Shown here: piece by piece, positions 34,276-36,904 of the stretch
Numbering within the stretch: position 1 is the first letter of the stretch
Layout of the letters: the number at the start of each line of letters is the position of its first letter
Notes under the pieces: generated by a model
The model's input: only the letters and a program-made list of their open reading frames with translations
What the model was told of the DNA's origin: nothing
Databases searched by the model: none
Assembly: GCF_025060375.1 (NCBI RefSeq)
Contig: NZ_JANXCG010000082.1
Span: forward strand, 1 to 36,904
DNA length: 36,904 bases
DNA from: Meiothermus sp.
Lineage (GTDB): Bacteria; Deinococcota; Deinococci; Deinococcales; Thermaceae
Direction: 5' to 3'
Translations under genes and position numbers: made by a program

Positions 34276-34979
34276 TGCTCGAGGCGGTCGGGCTTTGCAA
34301 GCGCTACTACCAGGGCGAGCTGGACGTGGTGGCGGTGGACCATTTCACCTACGCTTTCCCCCCGGGTCTTACCGCCATTGTGGGCCCCTCGGGCTCAGGG
34401 AAGACCACCCTCCTGAACCTTCTGGCGGGTTTTGATGTGCCTACCGAGGGTGAGGTTCGCCTGGACGGGCGGGTTTTCTCAACCCTTTCCGAGGACGAGC
34501 GGGCTGAGGTGCGGCTTCGCCACATGGGCTTTGTCTTTCAGCAGTGGAACCTGATTCCAACGCTCACCGCGCTGGAGAACGTGGCCTTTCCCCTCATGCT
34601 GGCAGGCCATAGCTTGAAAGAGCGCACTGAGCGGGCACAGGCACTTCTGGCGGCGGTGGGTTTGGAGAGACGGGCTAAGCACCTGCCCAGCAGGCTTTCG
34701 GGCGGTGAGCAGCAGCGGGTGGCCATTGCGCGGGCCTTGGCCCTAGACCCGCCCGTCCTTTTCGCCGACGAGCCCACGGGGAACCTGGACTCGGCCTCGG
34801 GCGCGCGGGTGGTGGAGCTGCTTTTGGCTCAGGCTCAGGCGGGCCGCACGGTGATCCTGGTAACCCACGACCTCGAGCTCTCCCGCAAGGCCGACCGCAT
34901 CCTGCACCTGCGCGATGGGCGGCTAATGCGGGTAGAGACCCCGTCTGCCGGCCTGACAAGGGCGGCTCAGTCTTTGTAG
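34275..34979 (+). CDS. ABC transporter ATP-binding protein, LolD/MacB type
   Basis: ATPase of 234 aa for the preceding permease. Walker A is GPSGSGKT (residues 37-44). [13 protein letters not shown], the signature LSGGEQQR, Walker [14 protein letters not shown] and the H-loop LVTHDLE are all intact. The ATG at 34275 overlaps the permease stop by one base, with GGGAGG upstream. Its last 13 nt overlap the convergent rtcB gene. Confidence 0.95.
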
Positions 34980-36145
34980 GGGTCAAACTCCCCTGGCCCA
35001 GCCATCACCACCACCAGAGGGCGCAGCACATGGAGCACCTTTACGGTGGGGCCCTGGGCCTCCAGCACATCCGAAAGCCGTCGGTAGACCTGGGGAGCCT
35101 CGTCCAGGTCCCCACCGCGCAGGATTACCCCCTTGCGCCCCAGCCAACTCCGCATCGCTTCCGGGCTTACCGCTCCGGCTTTGCCTCGCTTACCCAGGGC
35201 TTGGCGACGGCTCATCACCCGTCCGGCCCCGTGGACTGTGCTGAAGAGGGCGGCCTCCTGAAGGGGCCGGGCGCCTGGGTCGGTGCTTCCCTGGAGGATC
35301 ACCGCGTCGTCCCCCATGGAGCCTCCCACAAACCCCTTCTGTCCGGGAAAGGCGGGGGTGGCCCCCTTACGCACCACCACAAGCTCCTCTCCGCCGTGCG
35401 TCTCTTTCCAGGCGAAGTTGTGGTGGTTGTGCACCAGCTCCTCCTCCCGCCCCCCCAGAAGGGCCACCACCTTGCGGGCCACCCACTCCCGCCCCGCGTA
35501 GGCATAGCGTCCGGCCAGGTTCATGGCCGCCCAGTAGGCCTGCCCCAGAGGACTCTTCAGGTCCAGCAGGGTTTCCGACTCCGGCACCCGCTCGCCCCAG
35601 GCGCGGTTTTGGGCCAGGGCCATAAATCCGCTGGCAATGCTATGTCCCAAGCCCCGGCTGCCAAAGTGCACGCCTACCCAGATGCGGCCCTTCTCGTCAA
35701 CAAAGAGGTCCACATAGTGGTTGCCCCCACCCACCGTGCCGAGCTGAGCCCGGGCCTTCTCCCTCAATGCCTCGCGGTGGGCTTTGGGGATGGCCTCCCA
35801 GGCCTCGTCCTCAAAGAGGGGATGGTCGGTAGGGGCGTCGTCGGCCCGGTTGGTCCGCCCCAGGCCGAAGGAGACAGTGGCGGCGATTTCGTCGGCCAGC
35901 TCCTCTAGGTGCTTCTCAATCTTCTCCAGATGCAGGTTGGTGCGGATGGCGGCGTTGCCGCAGGCGATGTCGAACCCCACCCCAACAGGGCTGACCTGGT
36001 TGCGGTAGGCCGCAACCCCTCCAATGGGCATGACATAGCCCAGGTGACCGTCGGCCATCAGGGCTGCCTGCACAGCCCGTTGGGCTACATCGTAGAACTG
36101 GGCCAGTGTCCTCTCGTCGTGCTGACCGAATACGTGCGTTTTCAT
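34967..36145 (-). CDS. rtcB: RtcB-type RNA ligase
   Basis: GTP- and manganese-dependent ligase of 392 aa that joins RNA 2',3'-cyclic phosphate or 3'-phosphate ends to 5'-hydroxyl ends. Metal ligands are recognisable: Asp59 and Cys62 in GVGFDIACG, Asn142 and His143 in [10 protein letters not shown], His160 and His168 in HFGSRGLGH, and HNHHN (239-243). HGAGR (305-309) contains the histidine that becomes guanylated. The ATG at 36145 is chosen because similarity begins at MKTHVFG; no Shine-Dalgarno sequence is seen directly upstream. The gene lies 49 nt downstream of tRNA-Leu on the same strand. No archease or RtcA gene is nearby. Likely role: repair of cleaved tRNA or rRNA. Confidence 0.95.
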
Positions 36146-36159
36146 CAGACAAGCAAAGG

Positions 36160-36182
36160 CCCCCAGGCTCAACGGCTGGGGG
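36160..36182 (-). terminator. Hairpin between tRNA-Leu and rtcB, weak terminator
   Basis: CCCCCAG / CTGGGGG form a 7-bp stem with a 9-nt loop. On the minus strand it is followed by CCTTTGCTTG, a poor T-run. It lies 13 nt after the tRNA 3' end and 15 nt before rtcB. It probably ends most tRNA transcripts while allowing some to read into rtcB. Confidence 0.55.
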
Positions 36183-36194
36183 ATTGCTTTTGGC

Positions 36195-36281
36195 TGGTGC
36201 CGGGAGCGGGACTTGAACCCGCATGAGCTTGCGCTCGCTACCCCCTCAAGATAGTGTGTCTACCAGTTCCACCATCCCGGC
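36195..36281 (-). tRNA. tRNA-Leu (anticodon GAG)
   Basis: The 87-nt gene folds into a class II tRNA. The acceptor stem is GCCGGGA / TCCCGGC with discriminator A and an encoded CCA. The anticodon stem CTATC/GGTAG encloses loop TTGAGGG (anticodon GAG), the variable arm is GAGC-GCAA-GCTC, and the T arm is GCGGG-TTCAAGT-CCCGC. The long variable arm and GAG anticodon identify leucine, reading CUC and CUU. Confidence 0.96.
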
Positions 36282-36321: not shown

Positions 36322-36489
36322 GCACACTGCCCTTCCCCGGTCTTGCGTTACACAAGGCGCTACGGGCCTTTGCAAAGGTCAAAAACGCCTTTGCGAACGC
36401 ACCTTCTCCTTGGCTGGAAGTGGCTTTTGGGCCTACCAGAACGCCGTGGAAGCCCTTTCTGAAAACGGCCCGTTCTGTTTTGCGCAAAA
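36322..36489. other. Intergenic stretch with palindromes, no gene seen
   Basis: No coding region is supported. Two perfect 12-bp palindromes occur: CCTTTGCAAAGG (36367-36378) and TTTTGCGCAAAA (36478-36489). The second directly precedes an extended -10 promoter and could be an operator. A related imperfect copy, CCTTTGCGAACG, lies at 36389-36400. Confidence 0.45.
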
Positions 36490-36498
36490 TGCTATAAT
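36490..36498 (+). promoter_or_regulatory. Extended -10 promoter upstream of the CRISPR array
   Basis: TGCTATAAT joins a TGn extension to a perfect TATAAT. No -35 match is needed for an extended -10 site, and none is clear. It is directed toward the CRISPR array, whose first repeat is 224 nt downstream, but a hairpin with a T-run lies between them. Confidence 0.6.
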
Positions 36499-36517: not shown

Positions 36518-36550
36518 ATGGTGAATCTTGAAAACCTAGCCTTCCGATAG
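36518..36550 (+). CDS. Possible 10-codon leader peptide
   Basis: ATG at 36518 opens MVNLENLAFR and stops with TAG. GGAG lies 6 nt upstream, an ideal ribosome site, and the extended -10 promoter is 20 nt upstream. It may be a leader peptide or a chance frame within a small RNA. No similarity is known to me. Confidence 0.3.
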   Translation: MVNLENLAFR

Positions 36551-36629: not shown

Positions 36630-36665
36630 GGTTATCCACAGCCCTCCTGTGGATAACCCGGTTTT
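36630..36665 (+). terminator. Terminator-like hairpin containing two inverted DnaA-box sequences
   Basis: GGTTATCCACAG (36630-36641) and CTGTGGATAACC (36647-36658) form a perfect 12-bp stem with a CCCTC loop, followed by CGGTTTTC. Each arm contains TTATCCACA, the consensus DnaA box, in opposite orientation (36632-36640 and 36648-36656). It could end a short transcript from the promoter at 36490, bind DnaA, or both. Confidence 0.55.
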
Positions 36666-36721
36666 CTCATAAATACCCCCTTGGAGAACCTCTTGCGGGA
36701 CGGCGATTAACGGGGTATGCT

Positions 36722-36904
36722 GTCGCAAACCCAAAGCCCCGAAAGGGGATTGCAACACTATCCCAGAGCCCGGGTTGCGGCGGTGCGCTCCACCCTGTCG
36801 CAAACCCAAAGCCCCGAAAGGGGATTGCAACAGAGCCTCCCCTAACATCAGCAACATCGGCGTTTTCTTCAGTCGCAAACCCAAAGCCCCGAAAGGGGAT
36901 TGCA
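36722..36904 (+). CRISPR. CRISPR array, first three repeats (truncated by window end)
   Basis: A 35-nt repeat begins GTCGCAAACC, has the internal hairpin CCCC-GAAA-GGGG and ends GGATTGCAAC. Copies are at 36722-36756, 36797-36831 and 36872-36904 (the last cut 2 nt short). All visible bases are identical. The two spacers are both 40 nt (36757-36796 and 36832-36871). The 3' end ATTGCAAC resembles the ATTGAAAC tag that becomes the crRNA 5' handle, so transcription is probably left to right with the leader at 36500-36721. The repeat resembles known Thermaceae repeats of type I/III systems. No cas genes lie in the window, so the type is not determined. Confidence 0.95.

Follow-up and report, generated by a model that had tools for sequence, protein, structure and literature searches.

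Inverted pairs of DnaA boxes occupy a fixed position in one class of CRISPR leader in Meiothermus and related Deinococcota

What is a hairpin made of two DnaA boxes doing beside a CRISPR array? The stretch of DNA analyzed here, hereafter the window, comprises 36,904 nucleotides of a Meiothermus genome, and a sequence-only reading of it had pointed to a facing pair of boxes within 25 bp, forming a 12-bp perfect stem with a T-run behind it. We find both boxes to be exact copies of TTATCCACA: box 1 lies on the plus strand (36632–36640) and starts 91 bp 5′ of the TCGC in the first repeat, box 2 lies on the minus strand (36648–36656), and the pair, spanning 36632–36656, sits inside a CRISPR leader. 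The inverted repeat that they make (36630–36658) does have a perfect stem of 12 bp, in which 36630–36641 pair with 36647–36658 around the five-base loop CCCTC; the hairpin thus reads GGTTATCCACAG-CCCTC-CTGTGGATAACC, with the boxes contained in its arms, and the T-run is present as TTTT at 36662–36665. No other exact copy of TTATCCACA exists in the window, where 0.09 would be expected, and none of 100 shuffled windows held two, which bears out the view that a chance double match is unlikely. What the earlier reading called a hairpin near the array does adjoin it, but this was an understatement: the hairpin lies within the leader, 65 bp from the first repeat, which starts at 36722. The observation is therefore confirmed, and was understated.

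The array in question forms the end of the window and consists of three copies of GTCGCAAACCCAAAGCCCCGAAAGGGGATTGCAAC on the plus strand (36722–36756, 36797–36831 and 36872–36904, the last one cut by the contig end), all three recognized in the sequence and also seen as sub-threshold Rfam matches to CRISPR direct repeats. Two further blocks of the leader, both on the plus strand, are about as conserved as the DnaA boxes, namely TTCTCATAA (36664–36672; mean identity 0.990 across 34 distinct Thermaceae leaders) and GGGGTATGCTG (36712–36722), which the leader alignment marks as the conserved leader end at the leader–repeat junction; these may be Cas1–Cas2 leader motifs. Around them, a nearby TACCCC could pair with GGGGTA. 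Upstream of the hairpin, the plus strand carries a promoter-like block, TTTTGCGCAAAATGCTATAAT (36478–36498), whose extended −10 element, TGCTATAAT, lies 139 bp from box 1; the block was recognized by consensus only and is not among the predictions of a simple sigma-70 scan of the window. It is followed by the motif CTTGAAAAC (36527–36535, plus strand) in a form common to leaders of several genera. Farther to the left lie a tRNA-Leu (36195–36281), an rtcB-like gene (34967–36172) and ABC-transporter-like genes. Six proteins of the window were compared to cas families without a match, and no Rfam family was found for the hairpin, the tRNA being the sole match above threshold in the window.

How widespread is the hairpin in its own genome? 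A scan of the 2.39-Mb host genome for the gapped dyad gave the window copy and one other, located where contig C86 ends, in a leader homologous to that of the window (79% identity over 160 bases). The search for further hairpins thus gave two dyads in total, both in homologous CRISPR leaders. A common terminator would have recurred after many unrelated genes, and there are no copies after unrelated genes in the host genome. The single 9-mer TTATCCACA has 20 copies, distributed as eight in contig C51, three in contig C96, four in the two leaders and five that stand alone. The eight in C51 fill about 145 bp of the dnaA–dnaN intergenic region, the host oriC, and are perfect boxes identical to the leader 9-mer; this oriC cluster differs from the leaders in number, with eight boxes as opposed to two. 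The host DnaA itself has ATPase and helix-turn-helix domains and has the stretch GRDHTTV in common with DnaA structure 8btg, from B. subtilis. In C96 (G000:C96:27771–27812; L193 1260–1313), three perfect boxes and TTTTCCACA lie directly upstream of a 166-aa ORF without a Pfam match. A plasmid-borne origin of the leader was considered and rejected, as a plasmid collection gave no match to it.

The class of array to which these leaders belong can be read from a related genome (G002), where the stretch between two dyad leaders encodes Cas10/Csm1, Csm2, Csm3, Csm4, Csm5, Cas6, a CARF protein, a shortened Cas1, and Cas2. This is a type III-A operon, and the sole cas operon that we read. Upstream of a dyad, and on the strand of the leader, at least 15 of the 20 genomes with dyad leaders have a Cas1 match whose end is 545–836 bp away. 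The host genome yielded neither a Cas1 nor a RAMP match, so that its arrays, of whose leaders two or more are still present, look orphaned; they may be orphans or be served in trans. As a control we inspected ten arrays with other repeats near other cas1 genes, from eight of the same genomes (twelve 20-kb stretches, two of them overlapping, with untyped arrays called by a mechanical detector), and encountered no perfect box. Among the arrays examined, the dyad is restricted to one class of array leader.

Leader homologues were found in 17 of 101 genomes, the own genome counted, and are followed by arrays with this class of repeat wherever the contig allows. Exact dyads (gap of 4–10 bp) are present in 31 of 111 genomes of the phylum and number 57, as compared to zero matches for a reversed control pattern in the same 111 genomes. 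These CRISPR leaders hold 44 of the 57 (36 of 39 in Thermaceae), including the one in C86, which was placed by leader homology alone because the contig ends there. The 13 others have no array beside them in the stretch examined, according to the mechanical detector, and 11 are accompanied by at least three perfect boxes in the surrounding stretch, as origins have. Searching by repeat instead retrieved two arrays in G013, two in G016, four in G052 and five in G055, with a dyad in all 13 leaders; the four genomes, from three families, were picked as known dyad carriers, while for the arrays the 13 of 13 is free of dyad-selection bias. Two further families have dyads before arrays (five of five dyads in G055, one of one in G109, and four of four leaders in G052), although the family of G109 is less sure owing to 9% contamination of that genome. 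Two of the four G052 leaders have box 1 as CTATCCACA. In total, we gathered 48 dyad leaders from 20 genomes, 44 with both boxes perfect and four with one, a frequency that is biased since leader homology, dyad or repeat search served to collect them. Four of five G055 leaders have a third perfect DnaA box 32 bp further upstream (L183 996, L185 1192, L186 910, L187 1163); in L184, TGTGGACAA is seen.

The dyad also has limits to its occurrence. The 27 genomes of one genus (g5), probably Thermus, are all without an exact dyad; in its member G032, none of four leaders carries one, the leader being otherwise related, and a repeat-based search of four more g5 genomes (G026, G029, G034 and G036) returned no such array. 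In G004 and G015 the arrays run up to contig ends, and the few bases left there hold no leader of this kind; the other ten of the twelve genomes in that search had no match to the repeat, a result that is uninformative as to their leaders. A wider scan for inverted dyads listed at least 116 loci. The mechanical detector placed an array no more than 400 bp from four of these, all in Meiothermus or Calidithermus; two more (L077 and L139) belong to leaders of Meiothermus that are followed by too few repeats for the detector. The other 110 loci listed had no array called at this range, and the closest arrays were 687 bp (L128) and 728 bp (L173) away. The link between dyad and CRISPR therefore looks lineage-specific, and a general one is disfavored. 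Halieaceae (Parahaliea, Halioglobus and Haliea) have a similar inverted dyad with TGTCCCCA directly upstream and no array near (L072 3051–3076, L080 4531–4556, L118 3010–3035, L169 3747–3772); that of L080 follows a gene for an RlmL-like methyltransferase, at the point where a converging ADH-like gene ends. Elsewhere (L192 1037–1071; G018:C168), three DnaA boxes lie directly 3′ of a uvrC-like gene, a 338-aa ORF on the minus strand.

Where in the leader does the dyad sit? Box 1 starts 89–92 bp before the repeat in all 43 leaders measured (91 bp in 31, 90 bp in seven, 89 bp in three and 92 bp in two); this table leaves out G000b, G001, G014a, G055d and G109, for lack of a repeat-pattern match or because of a contig end, all five being kept in the 48-leader stem table. 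The constancy spans three families, with an intervening sequence that is partly unlike. By comparison, a CTTGA motif upstream is 105–106 bp from box 1 in Thermaceae, 67–68 bp in G052, and 88 bp (three leaders) or 103 bp (one) in G055, and is unmatched in nine of the 43 leaders. With the repeat distance fixed and the upstream motif distance variable, the site appears to be held relative to the point of Cas1–Cas2 insertion, even if shared ancestry of the final 90 bp may play a part. As expected of a leader element, the dyad falls between the inferred promoter and the first repeat, at a fixed distance to the latter. However, the −10-like block is likewise at a constant distance in Thermaceae, where 27 of 35 leaders have it 138–140 bp upstream of box 1 (unmatched in eight), so that geometry does not cleanly separate a role in acquisition from one in transcription. 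The −10-like matches of G052 (110–111 bp in three of four leaders) and G055 (136 bp in one of four) are both doubtful.

Conservation is concentrated on the 9-mers. The 35 Thermaceae leaders reduce to 34 distinct ones, over which box 1 has a mean identity of 1.000 and box 2 one of 0.997. The spacer between them reaches 0.65 and the rest of the leader, hairpin aside, 0.78, a contrast that speaks for purifying selection on the box sequences. Ranked by identity, the best five among the 222 nine-base windows are the two boxes, one-base-shifted box frames and TCTCATAAA. In the nine box pairs, by contrast, none of 21 distinct stems shows a two-sided change: the four deviating box cells are all one-sided (C-A twice in pair 1 and once in pair 5, A-G once in pair 9). 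The adjoining pairs break as well, outer pair 1 in five of 21 stems (C-C in four, T-C in one, with G-T counted as paired), outer pair 2 likewise in five of 21, and the inner adjoining pair, as A-C, in three of 21. The spacer measures 6, 7, 8, 9 and 10 bp in 5, 33, 5, 1 and 4 of the 48 leaders, respectively. The 9-mers are thus kept as half-sites, and the box pairs are without covariation. The pattern fits recognition of DNA, 9-mer by 9-mer, better than it fits an RNA hairpin. The earlier reading is supported in part: the comparison speaks for its suggestion of a DnaA site, given that the boxes rank with the best-conserved leader windows, equal those of oriC and are conserved as half-sites; what it missed is that they belong to the leader.

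Could the 9-mer match nevertheless be incidental to a hairpin in the leader transcript, be it an intrinsic terminator or an element for processing or stability? The window hairpin folds well as RNA (−23.8 kcal/mol, z −6.25) and has TTTT after it, the G002 copy (L198) keeps its fold despite a broken inner pair (−14.5 kcal/mol, z −5.56), and outer pair 2 changes from A-T to G-C in two of 21 stems. Yet the one-sided, uncompensated changes in the box pairs and the breaks beside them speak against a hairpin or terminator formed in the transcript, as does the T-run, whose longest stretch within 12 nt is four in 17 of 43 leaders and three, two or one in nine, 11 and six, that is, shorter in 26. The G001 leader, moreover, has lost the hairpin fold and retained one perfect box (two of the five folded windows, L018 and L023, are left out here since all or part of the dyad is missing), and a terminator at this place would silence the array. 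We thus consider a role as RNA improbable. An ordinary terminator with box-like arms, as the sequence-only reading had allowed for, is at odds with the T-run in the 43 leaders and with the want of copies after unrelated genes; an intrinsic terminator was rejected on the two dyads of the host genome, both in leaders, and the unconserved T-run, and a structured RNA element on the lack of compensatory changes in the box pairs and of an Rfam family. A different protein (a dimeric repressor, say, or a Cas-encoded or architectural factor) might instead bind half-sites that are inverted, as those of dimeric regulators are, and whose conservation reaches somewhat past the boxes, to about GTTATCCACAG. 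A spacer varying from 6 to 10 bp would be unusual for a rigid dimer, though, and the likeness to DnaA boxes would be a large coincidence when the exact 9-mer, the same as in oriC, comes twice per leader in three families; this explanation seems to us more improbable still.

If DnaA is what binds, the boxes might simply be spares, spread over the chromosome with the arrays as a reservoir that titrates the protein. That leader boxes make up four of the 20 perfect boxes in the host genome, and that G014 has six dyads, would agree with this, but titration predicts neither the fixed repeat distance nor the preference for one array class, both of which are seen, and we give it little credence. A role in transcription deserves more. 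The promoter-like block TGCTATAAT upstream of box 1 would put the dyad within the presumed transcript, where DnaA, about 140 bp 3′ of the leader promoter, could act as a roadblock or repressor and tie pre-crRNA synthesis to its own activity; DnaA does regulate transcription in E. coli (PMC11317965), and such a role would be independent of Cas1, which the host genome lacks. Against it stand the CTTGA–box 1 distance, which differs between families when the repeat distance does not, and the putative promoter itself, with the unmatched −10 elements in Thermaceae and the doubtful ones in G052 and G055. On balance we deem control of array transcription by DnaA inside the transcribed leader unlikely, albeit the next most likely role after that in acquisition.

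We therefore return to spacer acquisition. DnaA probably binds the leader boxes, and since their spacing from the repeat is held more tightly than that from upstream leader sequence, a role in acquisition appears the most likely one, with less certainty than the binding. DnaA would occupy the two boxes as separately placed monomers, we infer, and serve as a host factor by which the leader is shaped, or marked, for Cas1–Cas2, much as IHF does in E. coli; spacer acquisition would then follow the level or nucleotide state of DnaA. That the leader dyad is a DnaA-binding element of fixed position, and that bound DnaA acts foremost in acquisition, is for us an evenly balanced proposition. Among the points against it, the host lacks Cas1 and RAMP matches and yet has perfect boxes, and in four of the 48 leaders one box is damaged.

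The comparison with IHF can be made more specific. IHF-dependent leaders include those of the E. coli type I-E system and others, and the E. coli IHF site is closer to the junction than are the leader DnaA boxes, 66–91 bp upstream. Both kinds of leader have a site for a host DNA-binding protein upstream of the leader–repeat junction; the former have IHF sites and those of Meiothermus, of the type III-A class, have predicted DnaA boxes. For the leader dyad, the geometry would fit an IHF-like role in integration. In the sections consulted of a review on type III adaptation, IHF is required for correct integration in CRISPR leaders, IHF and other elements help integration at the correct position, and no type III-specific integration element is named (PMC9048733). 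As to DnaA itself, the E. coli work describes double boxes (oriC, nrdA, datA, DARS) in which two nearby 9-mers act as a unit, as they may in the dyad, with an in vivo preference for direct pairs 2–3 bp apart and at least one imperfect box per listed pair (PMC11317965). The leader boxes are usually both perfect, inverted and 6–10 bp apart, hence a different arrangement. D. radiodurans DnaA binds a single TTATCCACA in vitro with a Kd of about 2.9 µM (PMC7988490).

The type III leaders of the g5 genus, probably Thermus, are instructive in this regard. They have a related CTTGAAA motif, a TTTCTCAC/TAAACCCC block, the repeat class and, upstream of one leader, a partial cas1 match in common with the Meiothermus leaders, which differ in having the dyad, absent from four of four leaders in the one g5 genome. 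In a Thermus strain, two of seven arrays, of type III, are reported to acquire spacers (PMC7515739). If g5 is Thermus, type III acquisition there can proceed without a dyad, and the boxes are not generally required.

What might a DnaA site be good for in a CRISPR leader? We tentatively propose, with more doubt than confidence, that DnaA at −91/−66 licenses or times type III-A spacer integration or array expression in Meiothermus and in Marinithermus-like and Truepera-like bacteria, and that this would couple immune memory to replication initiation or to the sequestration of DnaA by replicating invaders. We found no report of DnaA boxes in CRISPR leaders in the literature searched, subscription journals being mostly outside its scope. 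The conserved DnaA-box pair provides a concrete candidate for a host-factor site in this leader. If true, a link absent from that literature would tie CRISPR memory in these bacteria to the initiator of replication.
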